A stretch of DNA of 64,000 nt from Bacteroides sp. AN502(2024) (GTDB lineage Bacteria > Bacteroidota > Bacteroidia > Bacteroidales > Bacteroidaceae). Where the stretch lies: contig NZ_JBGFSP010000003.1 of assembly GCF_041227145.1 (NCBI RefSeq), positions 372,001 to 436,000 of the forward strand. The letters are read 5' to 3'. A program made the position numbers and the translations under genes. Shown one piece after another: positions 1 through 32,776 of this stretch; positions within the stretch are counted from its first letter, which is position 1, and every line of letters starts with the position of its first letter. The notes beneath the pieces are model-generated. The model saw nothing but the letters and a program-made list of their open reading frames with translations, did not search any database and had not been told where the DNA came from.

Positions 1-1
1 C

Positions 2-870: not shown

Positions 871-882
871 CGGCGTTTCTTT

Positions 883-952: not shown

Positions 953-954
953 TA

Positions 955-1949: not shown

Positions 1950-2187
1950 AATCCTCGTCATTAAAGAGTAAAAGCTGGCGGATGTCATCATCGTCAGCTA
2001 TCTTGTTCTTCTCCTCGGCGCTCGCATTAAGGATGTTGTAGAAGGTACGCTCAGTAATGCCGTAAGCAGGATATATGAACCGGCGCCATATCTCGCGGTT
2101 GGGTATCCCGCGCCTGACTTCCCGGTCATATATCCTGTTTATCTCCTCCACACGTTTCTTGTAACTTACTCCGCGCCGTTTTGCCAT
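1942..2187 (-). CDS. Small phage protein with a helix-turn-helix-like segment
   Basis: An 81-residue protein with a very basic N-terminus and an acidic C-terminus. The middle section, including GITERTFYNIL, looks like a helix-turn-helix, so DNA binding is possible. The gene starts three bases after the zinc-finger gene upstream ends and overlaps the gpG-like gene downstream, which marks it as a real operon member. I do not recognise the family. Confidence 0.6.
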   Translation of the reverse strand: MAKRRGVSYKKRVEEINRIYDREVRRGIPNREIWRRFIYPAYGITERTFYNILNASAEEKNKIADDDDIRQLLLFNDEDYE

Positions 2188-2190
2188 CTG

Positions 2191-2418
2191 TTATTCCTCC
2201 TGTACCTTGGGGTTGTAGGGCCGGATGTCCAGCTCTATGTTCGCGCTCACCGTCACCCGTCCGCTGCCACCGCACTGCGGGCAGGTTTCCACCGCCGTTT
2301 CCGTCTTCCTCCTGCCGAAGAACCGGGAGATGGTCTCCACCTCCTTTTGCACGGAGCCTGTGCCGTGACAGGCACGGCACAGGGCTATCTTCGGGGACTT
2401 TGTCACGTTCCGCTTCAT
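2191..2418 (-). CDS. DnaJ-type zinc-finger small phage protein
   Basis: A 75-residue protein with two CxxCxGxG motifs, CRACHGTG near residue 14 and CPQCGGSG near residue 46. This is the zinc-binding pattern of DnaJ central domains, and the pair could coordinate one zinc ion. The start at 2418 overlaps the Gam stop in an ATGA junction, so a longer in-frame extension upstream is rejected. The role is unknown; similar small CxxC proteins are common in phage early operons. Confidence 0.7.
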   Translation of the reverse strand: MKRNVTKSPKIALCRACHGTGSVQKEVETISRFFGRRKTETAVETCPQCGGSGRVTVSANIELDIRPYNPKVQEE

Positions 2419-2933
2419 GCCGCATCCTCCTTTTTCGGTTCGACATAGAAGGTTTCGTCCTGCGATACTTGGATGCCGCACTTGGCCATCTGCGGAACCA
2501 TATCTTCGGTGTCGCGGTCGGCAAGCAGCTTGTCCTTGGCTATCTCCTCCGTCTGGCGGATATAGCCGGGCAAGAATTCCTTCACCAACTGCAACGCACT
2601 TGCCCATGTGAAACCTTTCAGGGTTTTCAGCTTCGGAGTGCCGGTACGGAAACCTATGACACCATGCGCCATCTCAAGGCTCTTCTTCTTGGTGAACAGC
2701 TCCGTCTGGTTCTCTGTGGCGTATGCCTGCAGGGTATCAAAGGCTTTTTCCTTCTCGCCCTCTAATTCGGCCAGTTTGTTGGCATACTTCTCGCGAACCT
2801 TCGCGCACTGCAGCTCAATGTCCGCCGTGATTTTCGCACTCTGCGCGTCTGCTTTAGCGTAAACTGCAAACGCTTCATCGGCGGCCTCTCTGGTCACGCC
2901 GGTGATGATAACTTTCTTTTCTCTTTTTGCCAT
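2415..2933 (-). CDS. gam: Gam-like host-nuclease inhibitor / DNA-end protector
   Basis: A 172-residue protein related to Mu Gam, a relative of eukaryotic Ku that binds double-strand DNA ends and protects linear phage DNA from RecBCD-type exonuclease. Supporting features are the long charged coiled-coil helix (about residues 30-75) typical of Gam, the central AHGVIGFRTGTPKLKTLKG segment and the length. It starts at an ATG preceded by the leader pattern found before other early genes. Its stop overlaps the following zinc-finger gene. Position after transposition genes and before late genes fits the Mu gene order loosely. Confidence 0.85.
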   Translation of the reverse strand: MAKREKKVIITGVTREAADEAFAVYAKADAQSAKITADIELQCAKVREKYANKLAELEGEKEKAFDTLQAYATENQTELFTKKKSLEMAHGVIGFRTGTPKLKTLKGFTWASALQLVKEFLPGYIRQTEEIAKDKLLADRDTEDMVPQMAKCGIQVSQDETFYVEPKKEDAA

Positions 2934-2968
2934 TGTGATAAATTTTTGATGGTTATTACTCGGGTTGA

Positions 2969-3127
2969 TTATTCGTCTTCGTATTCTTCTGGCCAGCGGC
3001 CTTCTTCAATCTCATGCTCAATCTCGTATTCCAGTTCCTCAAGAAACTCTATACAATGACCGTCATGCAACTCGTTGTCCTGTATCTCATGGATTAAGTC
3101 CATTACTCTCTTGACTTTGCTTTTCAT
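2969..3127 (-). CDS. Small acidic phage protein (52 aa)
   Basis: A short frame from ATG 3127 to TAA 2969, with a basic start (MKSKVKR) and a strongly acidic second half ending EEYEDE. It overlaps the end of the upstream gene in an ATGA junction (3124-3127), which strongly supports translation. No family is recognised. The acidic profile resembles DNA-mimic or anti-host proteins of phages, but that is only a possibility. Confidence 0.6.
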   Translation of the reverse strand: MKSKVKRVMDLIHEIQDNELHDGHCIEFLEELEYEIEHEIEEGRWPEEYEDE

Positions 3128-3618
3128 GCCTCGCCTCCCTGCCCAAAGTTCAACAACATGCAGCCGACCTCCGGACGCGGAGCGGGTTCTGATATTTTCT
3201 TCGGCTTCAAGCCACCCTTGCGCTGTATGCTCCGCAACTTCACGGCCAGCTGCTCCAGTTCCTCCGTGGTGATCCGAGCGAAAGGCTTGCCCGCTATCCG
3301 GGGATGGCGGCAGAAATCGTTGACGCGCGCCCAGTCGGAGGTGTCGACGCCGAGCTTCTGCATCAGCTTCAGGCAGACACTACGCTGCCGACGCAGTTCA
3401 TCACGCAACTTCTGCCGCCATTCGTCTTGTCCGGACAGTTTCTCCAACATGGCGCAACACGTTTCATATTCTTTCCGTGTCATCTCCCGGAGGCTGTCGG
3501 TGCGGTTCCACGTGTACTGTAACACGATGGACTTCTTGAACTCTTCCCGGTCTCCCTCATAAGGCAACTTATTAAACGAGGTATAAAACCGACCGAAATT
3601 GGTTATTTCCTGTGCCAT
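3124..3618 (-). CDS. Phage regulatory protein, GemA/gp16-like (tentative)
   Basis: A 164-residue basic protein with the segment LMQKLGVDTSDWARVNDFC and ARITTEELEQLAVKLRSI. This helical C-terminal arrangement recalls the Mu gp16/GemA family (DUF1018), whose Mu member modulates host gene expression and DNA supercoiling. I am not certain of the family. The gene sits in the middle of the early operon, which fits. The start at 3618 is preceded by an A-rich leader similar to that before other uncoupled genes of this operon. Confidence 0.5.
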   Translation of the reverse strand: MAQEITNFGRFYTSFNKLPYEGDREEFKKSIVLQYTWNRTDSLREMTRKEYETCCAMLEKLSGQDEWRQKLRDELRRQRSVCLKLMQKLGVDTSDWARVNDFCRHPRIAGKPFARITTEELEQLAVKLRSIQRKGGLKPKKISEPAPRPEVGCMLLNFGQGGEA

Positions 3619-3635
3619 AATCGTTCGTTTTTATA

Positions 3636-3932
3636 TTATTCGAACAACACTTTGATGCCGCATGAACTGGCCACGTCAAGCTCCAGCTTCGCACCCTTGC
3701 TCAATTCCCAGTCTCGCAGCATATAGATATACTGGCAATCCAGCAGCAAGGCGATATCCGCCCTCATGTGCTCTCTCCAGTGCGCGTCGTCCGGCAATCC
3801 GTTCTTGAACGGGTTGACCGGCTCGAACCCCTTTATGCTTAAGTATCGCTCCGCGTTCAGAAACGCATTCCTGCGCTCCTCCAAATCATAGTGGGCTATC
3901 GCCCCGCTGATGTAAACCTTGTCCTTTCCCAT
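3636..3932 (-). CDS. DUF4406-type protein, nucleoside deoxyribosyltransferase-like
   Basis: A 98-residue protein beginning with VYISGAIAHYDLEERRNAF, followed by a helix, VNPF, HWREHMRADIALLLDCQYIYML and a C-terminal EL(D)VA helix. This is the pattern of DUF4406, a compact relative of nucleoside 2-deoxyribosyltransferases. The conserved acidic positions expected for nucleotide binding (D in MRADIALLLDC and E in LELD) are present. Members are frequent in phages and may modify nucleotide pools; activity here is unproven. Its ATG overlaps the stop of the small cysteine-rich gene upstream by one base. Confidence 0.75.
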   Translation of the reverse strand: MGKDKVYISGAIAHYDLEERRNAFLNAERYLSIKGFEPVNPFKNGLPDDAHWREHMRADIALLLDCQYIYMLRDWELSKGAKLELDVASSCGIKVLFE

Positions 3933-4105
3933 TATCCTTTCGTTTTTTGGTATTCTAAATGTCTCCTGTATCGTTCGGGCACCACCACCTCATAATTGCA
4001 CCGGCGGCAGCATTGCCCATCTTCTTTCACGGGATACGGGTTATAACCGTAGCCTTTTATTTCATTGCCGCAGATGCAGCAGGTCTTTGTCTCACTGTTT
4101 TCCAT
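3932..4105 (-). CDS. Small cysteine-rich zinc-ribbon-like phage protein (57 aa)
   Basis: A short frame from ATG 4105 to TAA 3932 whose stop overlaps the ATG of the next gene (TAATG). It carries CCICGNEI near residue 9 and CCRRCNYEVV near residue 32, two CxxC pairs that together look like a zinc ribbon. The overlap and the conserved spacing argue that this is a real gene despite its length. Function unknown. Confidence 0.65.
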   Translation of the reverse strand: MENSETKTCCICGNEIKGYGYNPYPVKEDGQCCRRCNYEVVVPERYRRHLEYQKTKG

Positions 4106-4109
4106 ATCG

Positions 4110-4289
4110 TCACACTATTTCAAATTGTACCTTGAAGCCATACTCCTCGCAAAGCCGCCGTATCTGCACCACGTTCAACGGAACGCCACCGTAAGGATAG
4201 AATATTATCCGCTCCTTGGTGGAGCACCGCACACCTTTCCGGCGTAGCTTGTACAGAATGTTCTTGCGTCTCATCTTCCATTTGTTCAT
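4110..4289 (-). CDS. Small basic phage protein (59 aa)
   Basis: A basic protein (MNKWKMRRKNILYKLRRKG at the start) with a C-terminal YPYGGVPLNVVQIRRLCEEYGF segment. The frame is open further upstream to 4397, but that would run deep into the ATPase gene. The ATG at 4289 begins one base after that gene stops, so I use it. No family recognised; a nucleic-acid-binding role is plausible from the charge. Confidence 0.55.
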   Translation of the reverse strand: MNKWKMRRKNILYKLRRKGVRCSTKERIIFYPYGGVPLNVVQIRRLCEEYGFKVQFEIV

Positions 4290-4290
4290 A

Positions 4291-4914
4291 TCACAGATTG
4301 TTGCTCGTTTGAATGATTCCTTCTTCCCATACCACATAATAGCTTCCTGCCTCACCGATGGCACGTCCTTGACAGTATGCCTTGTAACCCACCACACGTA
4401 CCTTCATGTCCGCAAGATACTTTGTCTTCATCGCAGGCTTTCCCATCGGCTGGCTCTTATACTCCATACTCACGAAGATGAAGCACTTTTTCGGAAACAG
4501 AACCGTCACGAGATCCTCTATCTGTTTGTAGTCCCATTCAGCACGTTGGACAGAATCCACTACCACGAACTTGGGACTTTTCGGACGCTTCAACCGTGCT
4601 ATCACCTCCTCGTAGGTTTCACCCGCCACCACGCGGAACCGGCCTTGTACCTCGTTCATCTTCAGGTAGCCCATACGACGCTGGAAACTCTGGCTCACGC
4701 CTTCCTCGTAGCTCAGGTATAGTACTGTCCCATAGTTACAGAGTTCTTTGCCTAACTGCATCACGAAGCTGCTCTTGCCACTGGCACTGGCCCCGCTGAT
4801 GAACCACGAGGCGTTATCCGCTGGGAAGCCGAACGGCTTGCTCCATTTCTCACCCCAAGGCAGGGTTTTCCATTTCTTGGCCGCAATATCGCGTGGTGTT
4901 AATGCCCGTTTCAT
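4291..4914 (-). CDS. RecA/DnaB-fold P-loop ATPase (phage)
   Basis: A 207-residue protein with a Walker A loop, SGASASGKSS, near residues 40-49 and a Walker B-like strand, KFVVVDSVQ, near residues 115-123. GTVLYLSYEE follows the P-loop as in RecA-fold recombination or helicase-loader ATPases. It lacks a separate DNA-binding domain, so a single-domain accessory ATPase for phage replication is likely. It is the second ATPase of the early operon besides the MuB-like protein, and overlaps the upstream gene in an ATGA junction (4911-4914). Confidence 0.75.
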   Translation of the reverse strand: MKRALTPRDIAAKKWKTLPWGEKWSKPFGFPADNASWFISGASASGKSSFVMQLGKELCNYGTVLYLSYEEGVSQSFQRRMGYLKMNEVQGRFRVVAGETYEEVIARLKRPKSPKFVVVDSVQRAEWDYKQIEDLVTVLFPKKCFIFVSMEYKSQPMGKPAMKTKYLADMKVRVVGYKAYCQGRAIGEAGSYYVVWEEGIIQTSNNL

Positions 4915-5159
4915 AGCTTTTCCTTTTGAAGTTCAGCAATAAGCATATCCGCAAGTTCTACCGCAGCCTCTGCAATGTCATTATAACCTACAGACCCTCC
5001 TCGGAGAAGAATATTTCGCGACTCTTTATATGCAACCGGCATCATTTCTTTTGCAATCTCATACCTCCGTTGTTTCCAATCTATCTCATTGGCCTTTTTC
5101 ATTTCTCGGTGAATACCGATAACGGCATCCATCGCCTGCATTTCTATCTTTGTCATCAT
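4911..5159 (-). CDS. Small helical phage protein (82 aa)
   Basis: An 82-residue, mostly helical, charged protein (WKQRRYEIAKEMM, AVELADMLIAEL). It is coupled on both sides: its start overlaps the MuB-like gene's stop and its stop overlaps the ATPase start. Similar small proteins sit at this place in other Bacteroides Mu-like elements as far as I recall, but I do not know a function. Confidence 0.6.
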   Translation of the reverse strand: MMTKIEMQAMDAVIGIHREMKKANEIDWKQRRYEIAKEMMPVAYKESRNILLRGGSVGYNDIAEAAVELADMLIAELQKEKL

Positions 5160-6034
5160 TGCGCTGTCATTTTTAGTTTCTCAATCTCGGTATATACTCT
5201 TCTCAGCCCGCCGCGTGTCTTGCGCACGATCTGTGCAATGTCCGTCCCTTCCGGGGCGTTGGCCTTGGCAACGATACGCGCCTGCGTGTTTTGAAAAGCC
5301 TCACGTTCCCTGCCGTCATCCGGAGTAACCTTGCTGTAGCGGTCACCGTAGCGGCTCAGCATCTCGGTGTAACCCACCTTCTTGCACTCGATGGAGCGGT
5401 TTATCTTCTCCTTCAGACCGTCCGCGCCCATCATGTACCATGCACAGCAACGCTCCGTGGCGTTCCACAAGGCTTTCAGCTCAAGGAACGCCTCGTACTG
5501 CAGGTCGCCGGCCTCATCGAGAATAATAAGCGGAGTATCCATCGAGCGAAGGTAATAAACAAGGTCATCGTACACATCGTTATACCGGCCACGGCTGTTC
5601 ACGCCGAATTCGGCGGCGATTTTCCGTACCAGCTTCAACTTGGTCTTCACTTGCGAGCAGTCGATATACACGGCATTCCTGTGGTTCTGCACGTAGTACC
5701 GTGCCGTAAATGTCTTGCCGATGTTCGGGATGTCGCACAGGATAGCCGAGAGGCTCGACTGCTGCGAGAACTCCAACTGGGCGGTGATATACTCGAACGT
5801 GGCGGTCTTGGCGGCCTTCCACTCCATGTCGGCACGGAGGCTCACGCCCAATCTCCGCGCAATGCTTATCCACGCCCCCTCGCTCAGGGCCTTGTCCGTC
5901 TGCCCGTTCTTCACGGCACTGTACACCGAGGTGCTGATGCCAAGGGAGGCGGCGTGTTTCGCATCGCTCGGATAGTTCGCCCGGTTGGCTGCTACCGCCC
6001 CCAAAATCTTCTGTTTCTGCGCTTCTGTAATCAT
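5156..6034 (-). CDS. MuB-like transposition target-selection ATPase
   Basis: In Mu, MuB is an AAA+ ATPase that coats target DNA, stimulates the transposase and confers target immunity. This 292-residue protein has an N-terminal helix-turn-helix (about residues 20-65, SLGISTSVYSAVKNGQ), a Walker A loop DIPNIGKTF near residue 104, and a Walker B LIILDEAGD near residue 154. The first glycine of the P-loop is replaced by Asp, which I believe is shared by Bacteroides relatives. The C-terminal LRRVYTEIEKLK helix matches the family. It lies directly after the transposase gene, as in Mu. Confidence 0.88.
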   Translation of the reverse strand: MITEAQKQKILGAVAANRANYPSDAKHAASLGISTSVYSAVKNGQTDKALSEGAWISIARRLGVSLRADMEWKAAKTATFEYITAQLEFSQQSSLSAILCDIPNIGKTFTARYYVQNHRNAVYIDCSQVKTKLKLVRKIAAEFGVNSRGRYNDVYDDLVYYLRSMDTPLIILDEAGDLQYEAFLELKALWNATERCCAWYMMGADGLKEKINRSIECKKVGYTEMLSRYGDRYSKVTPDDGREREAFQNTQARIVAKANAPEGTDIAQIVRKTRGGLRRVYTEIEKLKMTAQ

Positions 6035-6072
6035 AATTCTAACGCTGTTTTAATGTTATTCTAATCGTGTCC

Positions 6073-8085
6073 TTACATATCCGCGATGCCCCGAAAAGCC
6101 TCGCTCACCATAGGTTTCCACTCGTAGGTCTCATCCAGATCATCCTGTTTCGCCACCGGGGGCAATACGAGGCTTTCTGCGGCCTCTTTCTCCGCCGGTT
6201 GTATGATTGCCGTACCGACCCTGTCGATGGCGTTGTCGCGGACATATTTGCCGAAACGGCTTATCTTTTTCTGTTGCTCAATATAGTTCACCAAGTCCTC
6301 CTCGGTCTGTTCGGCCAGCACCCTGTTATAGGTTTCCACCTTCTCCACCTTGTCGATGAAGCGGTCGCCTTGGAATATGTACACGTCCGTGGGCTTCCCT
6401 TCCTCGTCAGGCAAGTAATAGGCTGTCACCTTGTAGTCTCCCGGTTGCAAACGCTCCAGCACTGACGTGTCGCTCAGCCACCAATCCTCGTAATCCACGC
6501 GCACCGTCGAGTTGCGCCGTATGCTGGTTTCCACACGCTCGCCGATGAAGCGGCTAAGCGTGAGTTTGTCGTACTTGCGCAGGGTCGGGTTGATGTTTGC
6601 CATCAGCACCTGCCAGCGGGTCATGCCCGGATATTTCTTCTGGTTGGGATGCAGGGTGTTGTTCCATTCCGCGTTGTCCCGGCGGTCATCGGCCACCAAC
6701 TGGTCGTAGCTGAAATACTCCCGGTCTTCGTATGTATCGTTGGACTCGTCGCTGACTTTCCGGTATTCCGTGCGCCACTTGCCCTTGCCGTAGAAACGTC
6801 CGATGCCGACATGGTTCTTGTGGATGACGCTTCGCTTCTTCGCGCCGTTCAAGGGCTCGGCATATTTCTCCTGTGAATTCTGAGGAGCGCAGAAGTGGAC
6901 GAAGTTGAAAGCGACCCCGGCTTGCAGGAAGCCCTCCTTGTACTCGCTCATCAGGTGGTTTTCCACCTCTATGCCCGCAGGAATGCCCCAACCGTTTCGC
7001 TCGATGAGCCGGAACATGTCGCGGAAACAGTCCACGACAAGCATCTGGTCTTTCTTGCGCCCGTAGCTCGCGCCGACCACGCACTGGCTCACCACATCGT
7101 AGGCATAATAGGCGTGTACCCGCTGCTTGGTGTCCTTCAGCTTGCGTGTCAAGTCCACGTCGTCCATCGTGATCTGCGACAGGGAGAATTCCCCGTTATG
7201 GCGGTGGACGTGCGGCATCTGCTCGTGCATGAACGTGGTATAGCTCATCAGAGCGTGCTCGATAAGTAGCTTGTTGCTCGGTTTGTTCAGCACGTTGTTG
7301 ATGGTGCTCTCGCTCAGTTCCTTCGGAACACCGTTCTTGTCGGTAAAGTCATCCGGATTGAAAATCTCGCCGGTGCTCAAGTCCCATGCCTCGCGTTCGC
7401 CGCAGACAAAGGCGATGTACATCTCATGCACGTTGCTGTTGTACGGCTTGTTTTCCTGCGCCGCGAGGCTCAGGATAAGCCGCTCGGTCTTGTAGTCCAC
7501 CTTCCTCGCGCTTTGGTTGCCGAACTTTCCGCTGATAAGGCATTCATAGCCATACTGCTTGTACTCGTTCACCTTCTTGCGGAAGCGCAAGGTGCTCGCA
7601 GGCAGGTCGTGCCCGAACTCCTCGCGCAATGTCTCGATGGTCGTCGCCATCATGTCCCAGTTGTATTTCTCACCCATCAGCTTGCGGTAGTCGCGGCTGC
7701 GGCCGTACAGCCTGATGCAGGTGTTCAGCACGGAGGCGTTCACGGCATACTTCCTCGCGAGTTCGGAGGTGGCCTTGTCGCTGTGCTGACGGACAGCCCA
7801 GTCCATGAAATAAGCGACCGCAGACTGGTCAAGCTCGTAGTTCGACAATATCCAGCCGCGAAGGAGCACGGCGTTACCGCCGGGATAGGTCTCTTCAACT
7901 TTTTCCTTGTAAGCGGAAGGCAGGCTGTCAACAGCAACCAAGGCATATCGTCCAAGCCCTTTGCCTGAACGCACCACATCGATGCGCCCGCGGGCGGACA
8001 GCTGCTTGTAATTCGGCAGGGTCATAATGCCGCCGTCCACAAGCTCACGTGCTGATATGCAAAGTTTGTTGCCGTAATACTCCAT
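6073..8085 (-). CDS. MuA-like DDE transposase
   Basis: The transposase cuts and joins phage ends to target DNA. At 670 residues it matches MuA (663). It has an N-terminal winged-helix DNA-binding part (ISARELVDGGIMTLPNYKQL), a middle Ibeta/gamma-like part, and an RNase H-fold core. The first catalytic Asp is in TMDDVDL, the second position is a Glu in IEVENHL about 67 residues on, and the last Glu is in QEKYAEPLNG. A C-terminal ATP-ase partner-binding tail follows. The frame is open to an ATG at 8148, but the ATG at 8085 has a perfect AAGGAGG ribosome site six bases upstream and avoids overlap with the previous gene, so it is preferred. Confidence 0.92.
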   Translation of the reverse strand: MEYYGNKLCISARELVDGGIMTLPNYKQLSARGRIDVVRSGKGLGRYALVAVDSLPSAYKEKVEETYPGGNAVLLRGWILSNYELDQSAVAYFMDWAVRQHSDKATSELARKYAVNASVLNTCIRLYGRSRDYRKLMGEKYNWDMMATTIETLREEFGHDLPASTLRFRKKVNEYKQYGYECLISGKFGNQSARKVDYKTERLILSLAAQENKPYNSNVHEMYIAFVCGEREAWDLSTGEIFNPDDFTDKNGVPKELSESTINNVLNKPSNKLLIEHALMSYTTFMHEQMPHVHRHNGEFSLSQITMDDVDLTRKLKDTKQRVHAYYAYDVVSQCVVGASYGRKKDQMLVVDCFRDMFRLIERNGWGIPAGIEVENHLMSEYKEGFLQAGVAFNFVHFCAPQNSQEKYAEPLNGAKKRSVIHKNHVGIGRFYGKGKWRTEYRKVSDESNDTYEDREYFSYDQLVADDRRDNAEWNNTLHPNQKKYPGMTRWQVLMANINPTLRKYDKLTLSRFIGERVETSIRRNSTVRVDYEDWWLSDTSVLERLQPGDYKVTAYYLPDEEGKPTDVYIFQGDRFIDKVEKVETYNRVLAEQTEEDLVNYIEQQKKISRFGKYVRDNAIDRVGTAIIQPAEKEAAESLVLPPVAKQDDLDETYEWKPMVSEAFRGIADM

Positions 8086-8096
8086 CACACGCCTCC

Positions 8097-8468
8097 TTAT
8101 CTCAATGCCGATGCCCAGTTTTGAATGCTTGGAATTTCTTTTACACAAACATTCTCATAACGACGAACTTTCTTTCCCTTGTGGTAAACATCGCAGCCGC
8201 CGTCCTCGCGTGAGAATTCCAGCAACGTGTCGTTGGGCAGATACTGCCGCATGTAACCGTCAGCGTCATGCAGCGTCTCTATTTCTGGTATCTCCACCAT
8301 GACGATGCCGCCACGGTCCATCGCCAACTTACGGATTTTCTTTGCCAAGTCGGTACCGCCACGGCGGTCATCGAATCTGATGGCGTTGAACACACTCTTC
8401 TCGCTAATCCCGAAAGCTTTCATGATGAATTCCCGGTCTTCTTTCGTAATGTGGATGTACTTTTTCAT
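8097..8468 (-). CDS. Early phage protein upstream of the transposase (123 aa)
   Basis: A 123-residue protein with an N-terminal helical part (ITKEDREFIMKAFGISEKSVFNAI) that resembles a DNA-binding helix-turn-helix, and a beta-rich C-terminal half ending DVYHKGKKVRRYENV. Immediate position before the transposase is where Mu carries the small DNA-binding regulator ner, so a regulatory role is possible. I do not recognise the family, and the protein is longer than Ner. It ends 11 bases before the transposase ATG. Confidence 0.6.
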   Translation of the reverse strand: MKKYIHITKEDREFIMKAFGISEKSVFNAIRFDDRRGGTDLAKKIRKLAMDRGGIVMVEIPEIETLHDADGYMRQYLPNDTLLEFSREDGGCDVYHKGKKVRRYENVCVKEIPSIQNWASALR

Positions 8469-8496
8469 TGCTCACTCATTTTAATGTTAATACTTG

Positions 8497-8521
8497 TGGA
8501 GTGCTGGGAGTCGAACCCAGA
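8497..8521 (-). other. tRNA T-arm-like fragment in an early-operon gap
   Basis: On the minus strand the segment reads CTGGG-TTCGACT-CCCAG followed by CACTCCA. This is a perfect 5-bp T-stem with a consensus T-loop and acceptor-like 3' end. No matching 5' acceptor, D-arm or anticodon stem is present upstream, so it is not a complete tRNA. It lies between the stop of the 144-residue gene (8559) and the leader of the 123-residue gene (8468). It may be a relic of a tRNA 3' end or a chance match. Confidence 0.45.
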
Positions 8522-8558
8522 TGGCCGCAGCCACGCAGTCCGTGCCGCCCCTGTCATA

Positions 8559-8993
8559 TCACTTTGATGCCTCGACTGCTGATATGATGTATTTCTTGTC
8601 CTCTTCCCAAAGCGGCAGATCCATGCGCAGCTTCATCAGCGTCACCTCACGCTGCCCGATGAGTTTCACCGCTTCCCTATAAAAATCGGTATCCTCGTAA
8701 GCGCAAGCCTTACCGATAAGAAACTCGGCGAGTTCCCACTTTTCATCTTTCACTGTCTTCTTCAGTAAGCTAAGTTCGGCATCCTGTACGCCGACATGCC
8801 GCCCGATCTCCTTCAGGCATTGACGCAACTCTATATGGTCGTTGGCACCATCGTAGGCGCACATCGACCGCACTTCCTTGCAGAACTCAGCCTTGCCCAT
8901 ATTCCCGGCTGCCATGTAGAGGTTCTCCACAAACCTGTAATCTTCGTCTGTAATCAATCGCCGTGTAAGCTCTTCAAATTCTTTCTTTGTCAT
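8559..8993 (-). CDS. Early phage protein (144 aa), all-helical
   Basis: A helical protein with repeated short helices (YRFVENLYMAAGNMGKAEFC, ELRQCLKEIGRHVG, WELAEFLIGKACAYED), suggestive of an alpha-solenoid-like fold. The frame extends to 9065 but the ATG at 8993 follows a leader shared with neighbouring early genes (GAGTAAT...AAAATAAGTGAG), so I place the start there. No family recognised. Position in the early operon suggests a regulatory or host-takeover function. Confidence 0.6.
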   Translation of the reverse strand: MTKKEFEELTRRLITDEDYRFVENLYMAAGNMGKAEFCKEVRSMCAYDGANDHIELRQCLKEIGRHVGVQDAELSLLKKTVKDEKWELAEFLIGKACAYEDTDFYREAVKLIGQREVTLMKLRMDLPLWEEDKKYIISAVEASK

Positions 8994-9015
8994 GATCTCA
9001 CTTATTTTATGGCTA

Positions 9016-9231
9016 TTACTCTGCATTTTCCACTCTGAAAGGAAAGTTCCTATCTGTAAGCACACGCTTTACAAACCCCAAATCGTATCTATCGGCCGGA
9101 AAAAACACCGCTTGACAGTCCACTCATGGATAAGCTGTGATGGCTGTTGTCTCTGTTATTTTTCTGACCAGCCCGTTAAGGGATTCCACGGTTCCAGTTG
9201 TAGCTTGCGCTATAATCACTTTTGCCTTCAT
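9016..9231 (-). pseudogene. Small early phage gene interrupted by an in-frame TGA
   Basis: The frame starts at ATG 9231 and reads 35 codons (beginning MKAKVIIAQATTG, ending ITAYP) to a TGA at 9124-9126. It then continues in the same frame for 35 more codons (VDCQAVFFPADRYDLGF to RVENAE) and ends in TAA at 9016. Changing the TGA to TGG would give one 71-residue protein. The ATG has the same leader as its operon neighbours. A nonsense mutation is the simplest reading, although re-initiation at the GTG directly after the stop is possible. Confidence 0.55.
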
Positions 9232-9253
9232 TGTCTCACTTGTTTTATTGTTG

Positions 9254-9457
9254 TTAATACTCTTTGATTATCGGTTTCAGGCTGCAACCGTAGCAGGTCA
9301 TCAGACGGTAGATCATGTTCTTCACGTAGGATTCAGGTGCGCTGAACACGATGCCGTCCTCCTCATTGTAGTGGAATGAAACACCGTCCGACATCAGCAC
9401 GAACGCAACTTTGTGTTTCACGCTCTGGGTTTTCCACTCTTTAATCTCGTCGTTCAT
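9254..9457 (-). CDS. First gene of the leftward early operon (67 aa)
   Basis: A 67-residue protein (KHKVAFVLMSDGVSFHYNEEDGIVF) that I do not recognise. It contains two Cys in MTCYGCS near the C-terminus. It is the first gene downstream of the predicted early promoter at 9535-9565, so it would be the first expressed after derepression. The stop codon is embedded in the leader of the next gene. Confidence 0.6.
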   Translation of the reverse strand: MNDEIKEWKTQSVKHKVAFVLMSDGVSFHYNEEDGIVFSAPESYVKNMIYRLMTCYGCSLKPIIKEY

Positions 9458-9475
9458 TTTCTTTAAGTGCTAAAA

Positions 9476-9507
9476 TTCGTTATTCTCGCGGCTTTTTTGT
9501 ATCTTTG
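9476..9507 (+). promoter_or_regulatory. Candidate repressor promoter
   Basis: TATCTTTG at 9500-9507 matches the Bacteroides -7 box TAnnTTTG. TTCG at 9476-9479 lies 20 bases upstream as a weak -33 element. It would start a transcript near 9515 leading to the repressor ATG at 9591. Confidence 0.5.
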
Positions 9508-9534
9508 GCCGCTTGTTCTTTATTGAACACGTTG

Positions 9535-9565
9535 CAAAGATAGTGATAATTTTCAACCGGTCAAA
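9535..9565 (-). promoter_or_regulatory. Candidate early lytic promoter
   Basis: On the minus strand TTTG (9565-9562), a 19-base spacer and TATCTTTG (9542-9535) match the Bacteroides sigma-70 consensus. Transcription would begin near 9527 and run leftward into the early operon. Confidence 0.65.
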
Positions 9566-9586
9566 ATATTCGGGGATTATTTTCAA
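9545..9586. promoter_or_regulatory. Candidate repressor operators (direct repeat)
   Basis: GATAATTTTCAA at 9545-9556 and GATTATTTTCAA at 9575-9586 are direct repeats with starts 30 bp apart. The first overlaps the spacer of the early promoter and the second lies between it and the repressor start, so repressor bound here could block early transcription. Confidence 0.5.
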
Positions 9587-9590
9587 TTTT

Positions 9591-10280
9591 ATGGGAACAA
9601 TTTTATCAAGAATACAAGAAATAGCCACAGAAGAAGGGATAACTATCGGAGCCCTTGAACGCCAAATAGGGGCAAGCAAGGGAGTTTTGTCACGTGCCAT
9701 AAACAATGGTACAGACATCCAGTCTAAATGGATACAAACAATAGTTGAAAATTATCCCCGTTATTCCCCAAGATGGTTAATGACGGGTAGGGGAGAGATG
9801 TTTGATAAAGAACCGACAGCACCCACTAAACAGCAACCGACTATCGCCGATGAACGACCGGTAGCTTCCCCCGCTACAAAGCCGGGCGATGGCATTCCTC
9901 TTATTCCCATAGAAGCTATGGCCGGAGCCCTTACAAGTGAGCAGACTGTCCTTGAATATGAATGTGAGCGTTATGTCGTTCCGATGTTTAAGGGCGCAGA
10001 CTTTCTCATACCTGTAAAGGGATCCAGTATGTACCCCAAATACAGCTCCGGGGACATTGTAGCCTGCCAACGTGTACCAATGTCAGACTTGTTTTTCCAA
10101 TGGAATAAAGTATATGTCATCGATACAAATCAAGGAGCACTCATTAAACGCATCAAACCGGGAAGCGACAAAGACCACGTTTTAATCGTCTCCGATAACG
10201 AGAAATATGACCCATTTGAATTGCCATACTCAGCCATCCATGCCGTCGCGTTAGTTATTGGTGTCATCAGATTAGAATAA
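9591..10280 (+). CDS. LexA/CI-type prophage repressor with S24 peptidase domain
   Basis: A 229-residue repressor. Residues 1-60 form a helix-turn-helix (GALERQIGASKGVLSRAI). The C-terminal half is an S24 autoprotease with the nucleophile Ser in GSSMYP and the general-base Lys in ALIKRIKPG. An Ala-Gly in IEAMAGALTSE upstream of the catalytic domain is the probable self-cleavage site, as in LexA and lambda CI. This implies SOS-triggered inactivation and prophage induction. The open frame begins at 9513 but the ATG at 9591 starts the recognisable domain. It is transcribed opposite to the early operon, as expected for a lysis-lysogeny switch. Confidence 0.9.
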   Translation: MGTILSRIQEIATEEGITIGALERQIGASKGVLSRAINNGTDIQSKWIQTIVENYPRYSPRWLMTGRGEMFDKEPTAPTKQQPTIADERPVASPATKPGDGIPLIPIEAMAGALTSEQTVLEYECERYVVPMFKGADFLIPVKGSSMYPKYSSGDIVACQRVPMSDLFFQWNKVYVIDTNQGALIKRIKPGSDKDHVLIVSDNEKYDPFELPYSAIHAVALVIGVIRLE

Positions 10281-10513
10281 AGGCTATCGATTCGTATCCC
10301 TTTTCCTCCCCCGAATTATCCCATTTATCGGGTGTTCCCTCCCTCTAAAGCCGAACAAGCCACAAAACCGCCCCATCTACAGGCATTCACAGTGGTTTTT
10401 CTCAAAAATATGGCAGTTTTAGAGGGGAGGGGTAAAGCAATGTTTTTTTAATCCATTCCTAAAAAACGGGTGTTATACCCCACAAGCTATTTGTATAGCT
10501 CAAAACCAACTCT

Positions 10514-10571
10514 TGTAACCCTAAACTAAAAAAGATGTATCCCTAAACTGTAACCCTTAATGTAACCCTAA
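10514..10571 (+). repeat. Four TGTAACCCTAA-type direct repeats
   Basis: Copies begin at 10514, 10536, 10549 and 10561 (TGTAACCCTAA, TGTATCCCTAA, TGTAACCCTTAA, TGTAACCCTAA). They lie in the 396-bp non-coding segment after the repressor gene. The clustering suggests binding sites for a protein such as the transposase or repressor. Confidence 0.6.
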
Positions 10572-10596
10572 TCCCAAAATTGACCATTTTAGGCAC

Positions 10597-10623
10597 AAAA
10601 AAAGGGAGGCACAACAACCTCCC
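10597..10623 (-). terminator. Rho-independent terminator of the 79-aa gene
   Basis: Read on the minus strand, GGGAGG and CCTCCC form a stem with an 8-base loop, followed by a run of seven T. It lies downstream of the leftward gene ending at 10677. Confidence 0.7.
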
Positions 10624-11284: not shown

Positions 11285-12388
11285 TTAATATTTTATTCGT
11301 GGATTTACTTTACATAATGACAACTTATCGAGTTCAAGCTCCAATTGCCGGAAATAGTCATCTGTAACAGAAGAAAGATTCATTGGAGAGTGATTTGACG
11401 ATTTTATAGAGTCTGTTATCTTAAATTCCTTGCATAATGTATCACAATAACCGTGTTCCTTACTTCTTTTAATCGGCATAATTATATTTTCACTCATTGA
11501 TATTTTACCTTGATATAACGACTTGTGAAAACGCGTAGAATTATATACTATACCTTCATATCGCCCCTCGTATAATCTATTATCTTTTTCCTTAATGATT
11601 GAGTGTAACATCATTTGAGGTATTATATACTCTGGCTTAAAAGTATCCAGATTGTCTTTTTTACGAATATAACATGCTATAATGATAGGAAGCAACCTCA
11701 GATATTCTTTCGCACTTGTTTCATCTTTACAGTTTCTCCATAATCGTAAATCCATAAGATTGATCGATTGTTCAGCTTCAATTTTGGAAACGCAAAAATC
11801 ATCAAACGATGGCCTGTCCAACTCTTCCCAACAAGTATATATTGAACGGCACATATATAATGCTGGGAATCCCGGTAAACTGAATCTTCCAGTATTTGCT
11901 TTATTTCTTGACTGAAAAGGGACGTGGAACATTTCAAAAGCGAGGAAAGGATTTTTACCATTTACACCAGTTCTCATTCTGTAGTATTTATAGCCTTTCC
12001 GAATTTGATAACAACCAAAAATGCAAGTTCGCGCACCGAGTTTTCTTCTTTCTCCGTTCCACCATTTACTAATGGAATAATAGCTGGTAGCCATTGCCCC
12101 ATTCAGATAATGATTGAGTGCTCTTTTAATGCAGTCGATACAGTTTTTAGTATCTTCAAGAATATCCCTGCTCCATATTGAATAGCCACCTTCTCGAGAG
12201 TAGATTGCTTGATTATTTTCTAATAACGCGACATAACAATCAAACAGAGAATAGAGTTCTTTTTGATAATCATCCTCTTTCCTATCCCTTAGCCATCCAT
12301 CAATCTTTTCCGGTAAAGATTCAATATAAAGTTTGTATGCTTCATCTTGTGGCAATTCATCAAGATTTATTTTACCAATTATTTCCAT
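11285..12388 (-). CDS. RES-domain protein (putative NAD-degrading toxin or effector)
   Basis: A 367-residue cytoplasmic protein whose central part matches the RES domain: YYRMRTG near residue 135, then GRFSLPGFPALYMCRSIYTC with a following WEEL, and a later GIVYNSTRF. These carry the conserved Arg, Tyr, Glu and Ser of the NAD-hydrolysing RES fold. Known RES toxins are about 150-230 residues and pair with an Xre-type antitoxin; here about 125 N-terminal residues are extra and no antitoxin gene is adjacent. It is the last gene of a three-gene leftward operon, eight bases after the DUF4384 gene, and ends about 30 bp from the prophage. Enzymatic activity is inferred, not shown. Confidence 0.72.
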   Translation of the reverse strand: MEIIGKINLDELPQDEAYKLYIESLPEKIDGWLRDRKEDDYQKELYSLFDCYVALLENNQAIYSREGGYSIWSRDILEDTKNCIDCIKRALNHYLNGAMATSYYSISKWWNGERRKLGARTCIFGCYQIRKGYKYYRMRTGVNGKNPFLAFEMFHVPFQSRNKANTGRFSLPGFPALYMCRSIYTCWEELDRPSFDDFCVSKIEAEQSINLMDLRLWRNCKDETSAKEYLRLLPIIIACYIRKKDNLDTFKPEYIIPQMMLHSIIKEKDNRLYEGRYEGIVYNSTRFHKSLYQGKISMSENIIMPIKRSKEHGYCDTLCKEFKITDSIKSSNHSPMNLSSVTDDYFRQLELELDKLSLCKVNPRIKY

Positions 12389-12396: not shown

Positions 12397-13272
12397 TTAC
12401 TCTTTTATCATTATCGTTTTAGCAACAACCCTCATCTCCTTATCCCTACCCCTTCCTTTAGCCAGCCATTTCTGGAAATCAGTCCATTCAAGTTGTCGTG
12501 GACGAAGTTCTTCGACAGACTCACTATTTGCTTTCACAAATGTGTTGGGCGAAAAAATGATATAAAGGTCATTACGCTCCTGTCCGACGGAACAAGTCAT
12601 CACATATTCGTCCACATCGTTGCGCTCTTTGGCAGGAGCATTGCTCTTCGAGAAAAACACATAAGGCGTATCTCGCCGAATACGACATGCAACTTCATCA
12701 CTCGCCCGATAAGGGAGCAGGCAATAAGCTGTTTGGGCAACGGCATCTACAAGATATACAGTGAGATAACCATCAACAGGGGATTGGAACCGAAGATACA
12801 GGTCGTCACCGTCCTTAAATTCGCTGCGCTCACATTGTTCTGTAGTGCCATTGCATAGCACCTGGGCGATTAAGTCTATTTGTGAAGCTGTGATTTCCCG
12901 GATTTTACCGTTCACTGTCACCGTCACAACAAGATGATTCTCCTCATAATCTATCTGATACTTTGGCTCGCCGATGGTCTCAATCCACTCACCTTTCACA
13001 TCAGAGCCTCCAATGGATTGAAAATCCACAACCGAATTTCCATTCTCAGTCCTGATAAAAGTAGTGTTGCTTTGTGAAACGAGCGTGCCAAACTCATCGG
13101 CAATGGCTTGTATCTTCGCCCGGTCTAATGCAACCAATTTGGCTTGTTCGACAGTGATATTCTCAGGCGCATGGTAGATGTATTCAGCACACACCCTGAC
13201 TGTCCGTTGGGCAAGACATCCCACAGACAGCCCTATAAACAGAGCGATAGACAAAAGGCGTCTGGTTCCCAT
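12397..13272 (-). CDS. Exported DUF4384-containing protein
   Basis: A 291-residue protein with a signal peptide (about residues 1-21, ending CLAQ) and thus periplasmic or outer-membrane location. Residues about 140-245 look like DUF4384 (GDDLYLRFQSPVDGYLTVYLVD, then RNDLYIIFSPN), a beta-sandwich found beside LPP20-type or caspase-like proteins. The N-terminal half (QAKLVALDRAKIQAIADEFGTLV) resembles the LPP20/FlgO-like repeat in which an Ala-rich helix precedes strands. It starts three bases after the LPP20-like gene stops, so the two are one transcript. Function is unknown; surface-lipoprotein assembly or stress sensing are possibilities. Confidence 0.7.
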   Translation of the reverse strand: MGTRRLLSIALFIGLSVGCLAQRTVRVCAEYIYHAPENITVEQAKLVALDRAKIQAIADEFGTLVSQSNTTFIRTENGNSVVDFQSIGGSDVKGEWIETIGEPKYQIDYEENHLVVTVTVNGKIREITASQIDLIAQVLCNGTTEQCERSEFKDGDDLYLRFQSPVDGYLTVYLVDAVAQTAYCLLPYRASDEVACRIRRDTPYVFFSKSNAPAKERNDVDEYVMTCSVGQERNDLYIIFSPNTFVKANSESVEELRPRQLEWTDFQKWLAKGRGRDKEMRVVAKTIMIKE

Positions 13273-13275: not shown

Positions 13276-13947
13276 CTACCATCCTAAAAGTTCATCCAGC
13301 TTATTGTGTAAATCATCTCCTCTTTTCTCCAAATCCTCTTTTACTGCTTTTTTGGCAGCCTTCATTGCCATATCGCTATTATAGGCAATGCGGATTAAGA
13401 CCTCCTTGTTTTTATTGGAGAGGGTTCGATAGACCTCCATTACGGTAATGGTCCGCCCGATGCTTTGGGAGATAAAGTTTTTCGATGCCATGATGCTACG
13501 GGTGACAGACTCCGCTTGTTCCTGCGAAAGCTGTTCATTGGCTACCGTGTTTTCAATCAATGCGGTGACTTCTGTCTGGATTTGCCCGGCAAGATTCTGT
13601 TTTGCCAACTCCAAAGCCTGCATTTTGGCCGCATCGTAATTGCTACCTATGCTCATCGCCTCACCCATGATGTATTTGGGCAACATATTTTCATCATACT
13701 CATATTGCATCAGATAAGACTTATCAAGTTGTTTCTCTATAGGGAGTGCCCCCGGAACTGTGGTCCATCCTGACTTCTTTAACTGTTTAGCTTCTTTACG
13801 GGCGGCTTTTGTCGCCTTGTCGTTTAAAGCGGATTTAGACATTTTTGCTATAGCCTCACGTTCTTTCTTCAAATCTTTGACTGATTGAGAATAAGTAATT
13901 CCGCTTGCGAATAAGAAAGCGGTCAATAAGAGTATAAAATTCTTCAT
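13276..13947 (-). CDS. Exported LPP20-like protein
   Basis: A 223-residue protein with a signal peptide (about residues 1-20, ITYSQ). It continues with a charged helical segment and an LPP20-like domain around residues 85-200 (YDAAKMQALELAKQNLAGQIQTEV, then VMEVYRTLSNKNKEVLIRIAY). LPP20 proteins are periplasmic or outer-membrane associated and of unclear role. It is the first gene of the operon continuing with DUF4384 and RES genes. The only good promoter upstream lies in the putative invertible segment and currently points away. Confidence 0.7.
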   Translation of the reverse strand: MKNFILLLTAFLFASGITYSQSVKDLKKEREAIAKMSKSALNDKATKAARKEAKQLKKSGWTTVPGALPIEKQLDKSYLMQYEYDENMLPKYIMGEAMSIGSNYDAAKMQALELAKQNLAGQIQTEVTALIENTVANEQLSQEQAESVTRSIMASKNFISQSIGRTITVMEVYRTLSNKNKEVLIRIAYNSDMAMKAAKKAVKEDLEKRGDDLHNKLDELLGW

Positions 13948-14012
13948 AATGTTATATATTTATGTTTATTCTTACCAAGTTGATTTCGACATTTATTATT
14001 CACTCTCAATCC

Positions 14013-14202
14013 ATCTCTTAACAGGAGAGGGATTGAATTTGGAATATGTTTAAAATCAGGGTGTGAATTTTCATACAGCAAGTGTTTTCGCTAAACATTT
14101 TGTGCTTTTAGACATAATCCGTAAATTTCCTCGTAAAGATTTACTTCTATTTGCAACATTTTACTTATCTTTGTACCATAAATATCTCTCCTGTTAAGAG
14201 AT
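14013..14202. promoter_or_regulatory. Putative invertible promoter flanked by perfect 17-bp inverted repeats
   Basis: ATCTCTTAACAGGAGAG at 14013-14029 is the exact reverse complement of 14186-14202. The 156-bp interval contains TATCTTTG at 14166-14173, a Bacteroides -7 box 12 bases before the right repeat, now reading rightward. Inversion would point it at the LPP20-DUF4384-RES operon starting at 13947. This is the layout of Bacteroides phase-variable promoters. No invertase gene is in the window. Confidence 0.6.
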
Positions 14203-14273
14203 ACCGTATTTTGCTAAACATATTTCTTACAGATTTTTCAATATCATCTCGTTCTTTGAAGATTTATCTAAAT

Positions 14274-14308
14274 CGTTGGACTTTTCCGTGGCTTCCAAAA
14301 GTCCAACG
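14274..14308. terminator. 12-bp hairpin, possible terminator or element end
   Basis: CGTTGGACTTTT (14274-14285) and AAAAGTCCAACG (14297-14308) are perfect reverse complements around an 11-base loop. The symmetric A/T run allows termination either way. It may stop transcription from the invertible promoter in its present orientation, or be part of a decayed mobile element. Confidence 0.45.
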
Positions 14309-14437
14309 GATAAACTGGTGGCAACTACCATATTTCGCAGCATTTTGCTACGCCCACCGGATACAAACAAAGAGGGCTCACCGGTAAAATCATGTGGTCT
14401 TCTTCTCTCCTATTCTTATCTTTGCCTTCAAAAAACT

Positions 14438-14629
14438 CTTATAACTAGTTACGATACTCTTTTAGTTCTTGCTCGCTTCATACTCCCAGCTGACCTATTG
14501 GAGTGTTTTGATATTGTTAAAATAGAGAACACAGCTGAAATGATAACCATTCATTTAGATGAGCTGTGCCTTGAAACACAGCGTTTACGCCTTAAAAGTG
14601 TTTTTACGCCTTGTCTTATACGGATTTAG
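14438..14629 (+). pseudogene. ISAon1-family transposase N-terminal remnant
   Basis: A frame encoding LLVLARFILPADLLECFDIV, then TIHLDEL, matches the start of the ISAon1-family transposase N-terminal protein, in which LPADLLEYF and HLDE are typical. The match runs about 45 residues and stops at a TAG (14627-14629), exactly where the IS3 element begins. No clear ATG precedes it and no remainder is recognisable to the right of the IS. This looks like an IS-truncated relic. Confidence 0.55.
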
Positions 14630-14666
14630 GTTGACACCTTTTTAGAGACATAAAAAAAGAAAAATT

Positions 14667-15044
14667 ATGTCTAAATTATCTCGTAAGATTTATTCTGAGA
14701 CTTTCAAATTGGAAGTTCTCCGTGATTACTTCAGTAGCGGTTTGTCAATGTTTGCTACTGCCAAGAAATGGGGTTTACCCAACCATACTTATATTCTGCG
14801 TTGGCAAAAGTGTTATGCAATTGATTCGGATTCCTTATCTTTGTCCCCCGAACTTCTGTCAGATCTTCAAATGAAAAAGAATCCAAAATCAAAATCTAAA
14901 GAAGAACTTCTTGAAGCGGAAAATTTGCGTCTGAGAAAGGCTTTGGAACTTGAAAAACTTCGTTCCCATGCCTTTGAAAGACTGATTGAACTCACAGAAA
15001 GAGAAGAAGGGATTTCCATCTTAAAAAAAGATGGTGCCAAATAG
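14667..15044 (+). CDS. IS3-family transposase OrfA
   Basis: A 125-residue protein with an N-terminal helix-turn-helix (YSETFKLEVLRDYF, FATAKKWGLPNHTYILRW) and a C-terminal leucine-rich coiled coil (ELLEAENLRLRKALELEKLR), the standard OrfA layout for end recognition and multimerisation. Near its 3' end is an A7 tract (15023-15029) in phase A_AAA_AAA, which allows a -1 ribosomal frameshift into OrfB to make the OrfAB transposase. Confidence 0.85.
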   Translation: MSKLSRKIYSETFKLEVLRDYFSSGLSMFATAKKWGLPNHTYILRWQKCYAIDSDSLSLSPELLSDLQMKKNPKSKSKEELLEAENLRLRKALELEKLRSHAFERLIELTEREEGISILKKDGAK

Positions 15045-15922
15045 TCACCGGCCTTCGTGAAGAGTTTCCTCACATCAGTGTGAAAACCCTTTGCGGACTG
15101 TTTGGCATGTCTTCCCAGGCCTATTACAAAAAGAAAAAAAATCTTTTGTCGCGTCATCAGATCAGAACAGCCATCTTGGATGCCGTCTTCTTCTACCGCT
15201 CAAAGGCTCCGGGCATCGGTGGTTTGAAATTATACCATGAGCTCCGCTCCCTTTATGGAAGCGAGATAACCGGAGGGCGGGATGCCTTCCTTCATCTGCT
15301 GCGTTCGGAACGCCTTATGCTGCCCCCGAAGAAACCCAGGCATACGACGGACTCCCACCATCTTTACAAGAAGTATCCGAATCTGATCAAGGGGGTAACG
15401 GCACAATACCCGAACCATATCTGGGTATGTGACATCACTTACATCTGGATTGAAGGTGGCGTATGCTACCTCCATCTTGTAACGGACATGTACTCACATG
15501 CCGTTTTAGGATGGGTGCTCTCTCCCAGTTTGCATGCCGAATATACGCTACAGGCACTGGAACAGGCCATCAATGAGGCTGGAGGTGGCAATCTTTGCGG
15601 CACAATCCACCATTCCGACCGGGGGGTACAGTATGCCTGCGATGCCTATATCGACACACTGGTCACTCATCATATACGTGTGAGCATGACTGAAGATTAC
15701 AACCCGACGGACAATGCGGTAGCAGAAAGGATGAATGGCATCCTGAAAACGGAATGGATATACGGCATGTCGCTGTTCAGGGATAAAGAGATGGCACGGG
15801 AGCAGATTACGCGAATGATTGACTTCTATAATAATGGACGACCGCATATGAGCATAGGTATGAAAAAACCCATGGACGTATATCATGGAGAGGTGCCGGG
15901 AAAATCATTGTGGAAAAAATAA
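15023..15922 (+). CDS. IS3-family transposase OrfB (DDE integrase core), made by -1 frameshifting
   Basis: This frame is entered by -1 slippage at the A7 tract and continues without stop as RWCQIVTGLREEFPHISV into the catalytic part. An alternative GTG start at 15080 gives 280 residues. The rve-type core carries the DDE triad: Asp in VCDITYI, Asp in HHSDRGVQY and Glu in DNAVAERMNG, with the usual spacing. The HTH_21-like segment and the C-terminal YNNGRPHMSIG are typical of IS3. All catalytic residues are present. Confidence 0.88.
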   Translation, partial: KKRWCQIVTGLREEFPHISVKTLCGLFGMSSQAYYKKKKNLLSRHQIRTAILDAVFFYRSKAPGIGGLKLYHELRSLYGSEITGGRDAFLHLLRSERLMLPPKKPRHTTDSHHLYKKYPNLIKGVTAQYPNHIWVCDITYIWIEGGVCYLHLVTDMYSHAVLGWVLSPSLHAEYTLQALEQAINEAGGGNLCGTIHHSDRGVQYACDAYIDTLVTHHIRVSMTEDYNPTDNAVAERMNGILKTEWIYGMSLFRDKEMAREQITRMIDFYNNGRPHMSIGMKKPMDVYHGEVPGKSLWKK

Positions 15923-16078
15923 GGTTCCATATGATAAATAAATACTATATTTGCGATACCGAGAACCCGGGACATGACGGTTTAAGCCATTGTCTCACAA
16001 AAGCCAATAGGGTGTCGAACCCTATTGACTTTTACCGAGAGCCCGAGCACACTCAGATTTGTCCATTGTTTTTACGTA

Positions 16079-16191
16079 TGACAACTATCTTAGGAGCAAA
16101 GGGAAGAAACTAACAACTGTTTTAGTTATGAATAACAGAATGTGACAACTTATTTAGTAACTAGCCTCTAAAAGTGACAACCATTTCTAGT
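16079..16191 (+). repeat. Four 17-bp sites at an exact 32-bp period
   Basis: TGACAACTATCTTAGGA (16079), TAACAACTGTTTTAGTT (16111), TGACAACTTATTTAGTA (16143) and TGACAACCATTTCTAGT (16175) start exactly 32 bp apart while the DNA between them differs. Regular spacing near three helical turns suggests protein-binding sites on one DNA face. No gene is seen between 16023 and 16444. Confidence 0.55.
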
Positions 16192-16223
16192 ATAAGTCAT
16201 TTCAAGATGTTTCAATTGCTTGA

Positions 16224-16352
16224 AACACTTTGTTTCAAGGCGCTGAACACTTTGTTTCAAGGCGCTGAACACTTTGTTCCAAGGCACGAAAACACTTTGT
16301 TCCAAGCCGCAAAACACTTTGTTTCAAGCCGCAAAACACTTTGTTTCAAGGC
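16224..16352 (+). repeat. 22-bp tandem repeat, six copies
   Basis: Units of the form AACACTTTGTTTCAAGGCGC begin at 16224, 16246, 16268, 16291, 16313 and 16335. Each has partial dyad symmetry (for example TTGAAAC...GTTTCAA in the first). They lie upstream of the LRR lipoprotein promoter. Confidence 0.8.
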
Positions 16353-16382
16353 ATGTACTGATAAATATACCCATTTTTAGGT

Positions 16383-32769: not shown

Positions 32770-32776
32770 CAGCGCA

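Follow-up and report, generated by a model that had tools for sequence, protein, structure and literature searches.

The LPP-DUF4384-RES operon and the inverted repeat upstream of it

The window (the whole 64,000-nt stretch of Bacteroides sp. AN502(2024) DNA that was analysed) contains three open reading frames on the minus strand, at 13276-13947, 12397-13272, and 11285-12388, separated by 3 and 8 bp. The first gene (13276..13947, 223 aa), here called LPP, is conserved in Bacteroidales and has a start that by eye resembles a signal peptide. The label LPP20, given to it in the preliminary description, could not be retained, as LPP20 is missing from its Pfam hits up to an E of 10. The second gene (12397..13272) encodes a DUF4384 protein (E 3.8e-5, under the Pfam cut-off), again with a signal-peptide-like start by eye, and the third (11285..12388, 367 aa) a RES-domain protein (E 0.0023, also under the Pfam cut-off).

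Upstream of LPP lies a 190-bp segment (14013..14202, no strand assigned) bounded by an operon-proximal arm, ATCTCTTAACAGGAGAG (14013-14029, plus strand), and a recombinase-proximal arm, CTCTCCTGTTAAGAGAT (14186-14202, plus strand). The two are exact reverse complements over 17 bp with 156 bp between them, and the repeat can be extended to 22 nt at 91% identity (to 14034). It is the sole perfect 17-bp inverted repeat with a span of 100-400 in the window, and none was found in 20 first-order Markov sequences of 64 kb. Each arm is an imperfect TCTCTT-AAGAGA dyad able to fold as a small hairpin. No second exact copy of the arm was found in the genome itself, and no plasmid matched an inverted copy of the locus; the 17-mer arm occurs in six IMG/VR stretches, in one copy each, without the repeat pair.

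A -7 box, TATCTTTG, is located at 14166..14173 on the plus strand, 29 nt inside the recombinase-proximal arm, and at present it points away from the operon (OFF). Both the perfect repeat and the outward-pointing box, which the preliminary description had put forward, are thereby confirmed. TANNTTTG alone has no significance in the window (51 present versus 48.25 expected). On the minus strand of 13948-14260 the exact TANNTTTG is absent, and two one-mismatch sites are found, at 14222 and 14184. Inverting the segment in silico brings the box to 14049-14042(-), 95-102 bp upstream of the ATG at 13947, in line with the distance of about 90 bp first proposed. A TTTG is found 12 nt upstream of the -7 box, so that the usual -33 spacing is not matched; the consensus of the related elements described below is also T-rich (TTTnCA) near this position.

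Elsewhere in the window, a Mu-like prophage occupies 1-10600 (transposase 6073-8148(-), MuB-like gene 5156-6034(-), CI/S24 repressor 9513-10280(+)), with TGTAACCC repeats at 10512-10580 that, read by eye, likely mark the phage end. A cobalamin riboswitch is present at 32761-32960 (106 bits).

Origin of the operon genes

RES toxins act on NAD, an activity that the product of the third gene may share. Its assignment to the RES domain was made on conservation. PF08808 is carried by 9 of its 60 listed relatives, and R139, E189, and S284, the residues that give the RES domain its name (Arg, Glu, Ser), are invariant in 17 aligned sequences chosen from the 60. The RES label of the preliminary description is thus upheld by conservation in relatives while its own Pfam score stays under the curated cut-off; taken together, the alignment supports a real RES relative. 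The protein is close to phage family phrog_7835. Among solved structures, the alignment matched only designed chlorophyll-dimer proteins in its N-terminal part (best E 3e-4), which were taken as irrelevant.

The neighbourhood of LPP was counted anywhere in the stretch examined, as a rule up to 8 kb on each side. A DUF4384 relative shares the locus with LPP in 44 of 51 loci, caspase-like genes occur in 42 of 51, and genes for exported-looking proteins of ~490 aa in 30 of 51; neither of the latter two is found near the window LPP. The proximity of LPP-DUF4384 genes to caspase-like genes extends over many Bacteroidales (L071-L118, L059-L061). All 12 distinct loci with RES relatives (three with only 1.5 kb of flank) are devoid of LPP and DUF4384 in the stretch examined, and among the loci searched LPP/DUF4384 together with RES is seen only in the window. 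Because the 12 RES-relative loci lack LPP and DUF4384, the RES gene of the window operon looks like a local acquisition; here it follows an operon start of envelope type, which at other loci is often near caspase-like genes.

The right flank of the segment

Immediately to the right of the segment, 14227..14256 on the minus strand corresponds to the last codons (NEMILKNL) and the stop of a lost recombinase gene, with DNA homology to a related genome, G133, reaching 14254. The frame was read by eye against the end of the L062 recombinase (NETILKKL), the relic being too short for a tblastn report; searching the window by tblastn with four family recombinases gave chance-level matches only (best E 0.16).

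Further to the right follow a palindromic repeat (14268..14345, plus strand; also in G046 at 78%) and a fragment of a repeated element (14369..14564, plus strand), of which the same genome has three or more further copies at 96-97%, where 4 of 88 candidates were scored. Read by eye, this fragment is the 5' part of a transposase gene belonging to an IS. An IS3-family element occupies 14629..16182 on the plus strand (ORFs 14667-15044 and 15080-15922), its start possibly lying up to 17 bp earlier. This right-hand material seems to have arrived later. Palindromic CTTTGTTTCAAGGC units are repeated at 16200-16360, with a complementary copy at 14567-14586 across the IS3 element. A possible structured RNA spanning 14178-14460 (fold z -3.3) was rejected, as it gave weak hits only and no Rfam family at gathering score; part of its stem derives from the palindromic repeat, also present elsewhere.

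A family of recombinase-linked invertible promoters

A search of 158 genomes of the genus with the element and its flanks gave matches in 13, including the window's own, most of the hits being short promoter matches. The short DNA matches at the box (L009, L012-L015, L017) were discarded as ordinary promoters of unrelated genes. G133 matches the whole element at 70% identity and on through the recombinase 3' end, and shorter element matches were obtained in G063, G013, G004, and G141. In G133, G063, G013, and G004, the element is flanked on its right, at a distance of ~30-270 nt, by the 3' end of a gene for a ~400-aa tyrosine recombinase, and on its left by a co-directional operon. Arm sequences vary between loci and are complementary within each locus.

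A profile of 37 relatives, built without the window or L079 (see below), recognised the window at 14234-14140(-) with an E of 7.3e-13 and 44.1 bits, 4 of the 37 training loci having originally been found via the window's own DNA. The best window match outside the element reached 7.7 bits, and the reversed window gave none below E 0.95.

Relatives of the L063 recombinase at E<=1e-100 were found in 68 of 157 genomes, with 109 genes listed. For the survey, 72 of the 109 (those left out being mostly lower-scoring) were combined with the window and L079 into 74 loci, and the removal of L165, L173, L177, L178, L192, and L205, whose downstream DNA was shorter than 500 nt, left 68. Of the 68 loci, 48 have, near the recombinase stop, a perfect repeat that is 12 bp or longer with a span of 160-250; without the window and L079 the figure is 46 of 66, the remaining 20 recombinase genes having no qualifying repeat. 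Shuffled sequences gave 0-2 of 68 over 20 rounds, and the region further downstream 0 of the 66 loci that were long enough. The spans of the 48 repeats range from 169 to 240, and where a box is in place it lies 26-34 nt inside the arm (L218 has a second box at 37). By a strict rule, 40 of the 48 loci are OFF, including the window and L079, 2 are ON, and 6 have no box in place; the dropped loci L165 and L173 are ON-looking under a looser rule. In a set of viral contigs the same geometry was found in 7 of 9 loci, which amount to 5 distinct ones because L255-L257 are identical where compared.

Both orientations can be seen among close relatives. L182 and L184 have collinear flanks (99% and 88%) around a middle of 196 bp that is 99% identical and inverted; likewise, L164 and L165 have flanks of 81 and 83% around an inverted middle of 73% identity over 101 nt. 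Comparison of such loci shows that promoters of this family invert in nature. In L062-L065, a promoter pointing as it now does in the window reads into the recombinase gene in antisense, and another operon is situated on the far side. The first gene behind the L064 inverton is a NusG-domain gene, which we take to be upxY-like. At L062:4823-6919, two genes follow an inverton of this class, one of them zinc-ribbon-like (by eye) and the other of the kinase-FHA type.

A relative with the same operon start and its recombinase preserved

A search of genome contigs for the first operon gene yielded 48 LPP loci. One of them, L079 (JAFLRR010000005.1, with the MAG label Alistipes sp. HAN006), carries an intact recombinase gene at 6556-7752, followed by the repeat, LPP at 8001, and DUF4384 behind it. 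Its LPP is 67% identical to that of the window. The arms, CTCCTGATAAGAGA, have a span of 199, with the box 29 nt in and facing the recombinase, and they differ from the window arms at 1 of the 14 bases common to both L079 arms. The recombinase, the sole one scanned against Pfam, contains PF17293 Arm-DNA-bind_5 (E 3.6e-5), the SAM-like PF13102, and the catalytic PF00589.

None of the other 47 LPP loci (two with less than 200 bp upstream) has a recombinase of this class or a boxed repeat, and three have a 12-13-bp repeat without a box. Among 30 LPP loci of the genus, a set that overlaps the 48, a family-like repeat is present in the window only; one other has an AT-rich 12-bp repeat, and one has only 238 bp upstream. 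The link between the switch and the LPP operon, as judged from these loci, is sporadic and is found at least twice.

Orphan elements and possible recombinases in trans

Because the adjacent recombinase gene is lost, switching at the window would need a recombinase in trans. The own genome (G000) has 33 PF00589 matches, two of which are close members of the class, 61% and 57% identical to the L062 recombinase (G000:C3:1481417-1482622 and C12:60497-61699). The arm sequence adjoining the C3 recombinase is different from that of the window. Its own inverton (L239, G000:C3:1478000-1482700) is IS-interrupted, and the gene behind it resembles, by eye, the PLD/SNF2-helicase gene of L063, a locus classified by PADLOC as HKD+Snf2. 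The genome also contains another class of ~300-bp repeat-flanked segments (L122-L126, 5 of 9 loci looked at), with arms like CCGTTACTTNGTAGGTAACGG, which adjoin other tyrosine recombinases.

A second orphan element of the family, with a doubled distal arm (L261/L262), is found at G000:C3:709803 before an operon of OmpA-like and fimbrillin-like genes (named by eye). The TCTCTT/GGAGA half-sites that it has in common with the window were dismissed as a hint of a shared enzyme, such halves not being rare. Searching for the family pattern gave 62 sites in 44 of 157 genomes, compared with 2 for a backwards control. Of these, 35 are more than 1.5 kb from, or off the contig of, any listed class recombinase, which is an upper figure because of contig ends and weaker recombinases. 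For C3:709803 and seven of the 35, no class recombinase was found at E 1e-4 in any of the eight stretches of 2.9-14 kb. An exact 15-of-15 partner arm is present in 8 of 9 orphan loci, including the window, and missing in L269.

A class recombinase is present in 20 of the 24 orphan-bearing genomes versus 68 of 157 overall (Fisher p 1.8e-5, in a test that ignores phylogeny, genome size, and broken contigs). Action in trans fits this pattern, since the orphan-bearing genomes mostly hold such a recombinase.

Candidate accessory sites

In 26 of 48 loci, a 10-nt motif, TGTT[TGA][AT]G[CT][AG]A, is found beyond the recombinase-proximal arm at a distance of 15-22 nt, a candidate accessory (arm-type) site. 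The shuffle mean is 0.12, a control that is optimistic because these loci are also the ones from which the motif was derived; in the other 22 loci the outside match is missing. The window has a proposed outside site, TGTTTAGCAA (14211..14220, minus strand, 18 nt from the arm), and a proposed inside site, TGTTTAGCGA (14088..14097, minus strand), in the same direction, making up a putative pair of TGTTTAGC sites. Of the 7 viral-contig loci with a repeat, 4 have the outside site (2 of the 5 distinct ones).

Both sites are found in 21 of the 48 loci. The pair is direct in 14 OFF loci and inverted in 2, L064 and L065, which are exceptions in being OFF with the inside site inverted; the ON loci with both sites (2) are inverted, and among loci with no box 2 are direct and 1 inverted. 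In a looser comparison of the 40 OFF loci, 21 favour a direct pair, 3 an inverted one, and the others neither. Motif variants agree within a locus; L171, for example, has two copies of TGTTAAGCAA and L184 two of TGTTTTGCGAA.

We tentatively propose, as an idea to which we give appreciably less than an even chance, that the family is lambda-integrase-like, with the N-terminal arm-binding domain holding a pair of accessory sites, one fixed at the recombinase-proximal arm and one in the segment, mostly direct when OFF and inverted when ON. Such an arrangement could tilt switching towards OFF and allow a single enzyme to act on orphan switches at other chromosomal sites, the window included. The proposed sites would be a concrete candidate for the cause of the strong OFF bias. 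The literature searched, which mostly excluded subscription papers, yielded no description of accessory sites at Bacteroides invertible promoters, and covarying accessory sites in part of the family are possibly new.

Interpretation of the window element

Taken together, 14013-14202 is probably an invertible promoter of the Bacteroides tyrosine-recombinase family in the OFF orientation. By its kinship, the window element is to be regarded as a genuine family member, a known kind of switch that has been orphaned. The invertible-promoter architecture first suggested for it thus stands on kinship, geometry, inversion of the family in nature, and the matching operon start next to an intact recombinase in L079; the loss of the adjacent recombinase gene, which the preliminary description did not report, weighs against it, as does the fact that no inverted copy of the window locus was encountered. 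A recombinase would cut within both arms and flip the segment, after which the -7 box would face 13947 and transcribe LPP-DUF4384-RES through one arm. The flipping might be carried out in trans by the class recombinase at G000:C3:1481417-1482622 or C12:60497-61699.

The main competitor, to which we assign a probability not far short of even, is that of a dead relic, that is, a former invertible promoter locked OFF after recombinase loss, with the operon silent or read from another promoter. With its own recombinase gene lost, the switch may indeed be locked OFF: the gene is down to its last codons followed by repeat and IS debris, the genome contains no other exact arm copy, and no exact TANNTTTG box presently points towards the operon. 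Against this, the arms are perfect, the box is intact, both proposed accessory sites are present, and the three operon genes have open reading frames; orphan sites occur often, with a concentration in genomes that hold a class recombinase, and in B. fragilis a promoter at a distance is flipped by Tsr19/BF2766 (PMC4747536). Whether the window site can still be flipped in trans or is locked OFF, we consider about evenly balanced. A site still flippable in trans would be a phase switch that has survived the loss of its recombinase while remaining directed at its operon.

It is improbable that the promoter, though real, has its working target to the right (the IS3 element or the genes from ~16446), where its present reading direction takes it into IS DNA, since in L062-L065 the same direction is antisense into the recombinase with another operon on the far side, and the window's right-hand material looks later-arrived. 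Slightly less probable still is a transposon end pair (MITE), a terminator, or a chance palindrome: the hairpins of the arms and the adjacent IS elements would suit it, but the geometry 3' of recombinase genes (46/66 against 0-2/68 in shuffles), the arms that differ among loci and are complementary in each, and the natural inversions between collinear flanks speak against it, and on the recombinase-linked geometry and these inversions a MITE or IS-end identity was rejected.

Comparison with known systems

Gut invertons were reportedly found by Jiang et al. in 2019 with PhaseFinder. PMC11892184 describes gut invertons as promoters that lie between repeats in Bacteroidota and are sorted into groups by the sequence of their arms; the window has the repeat-flanked promoter in common with the PhaseFinder invertons and, with its TCTCTT-AAGAGA arms, is likened to them by architecture only. 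IntDOT-type tyrosine recombinases have an arm-binding domain (PMC8138268). The L079 recombinase is like them in containing PF17293 Arm-DNA-bind_5, PF13102, and PF00589, and unlike them in adjoining an invertible promoter, where the arm sites are only proposed.

In B. fragilis, the tyrosine recombinase Tsr19/BF2766 flips IVp-I, just downstream, and the distant IVp-II; both inversions were proven by a deletion mutant and IVp-I is mostly OFF in culture (PMC4747536, PMC3090145). The window, with a promoter far from a recombinase, may be likened to this system in its arrangement, and differs from it in that a trans-acting enzyme for the window is a guess.

The IP-ARG classes of Yan et al. 2022 (PMC8748976) have an invertible promoter directly 3' of the invertase gene and frequently upxY or glycan genes first in the operon, and they are mainly OFF in 92 of 96 metagenome cases. 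Unlike these, the window is without an invertase gene and its operon is LPP-DUF4384-RES. The family described here nevertheless resembles them by architecture, in the succession of invertase gene, repeat-flanked TANNTTTG promoter, and operon, and in both systems OFF prevails, here at 40 of 48 family loci.
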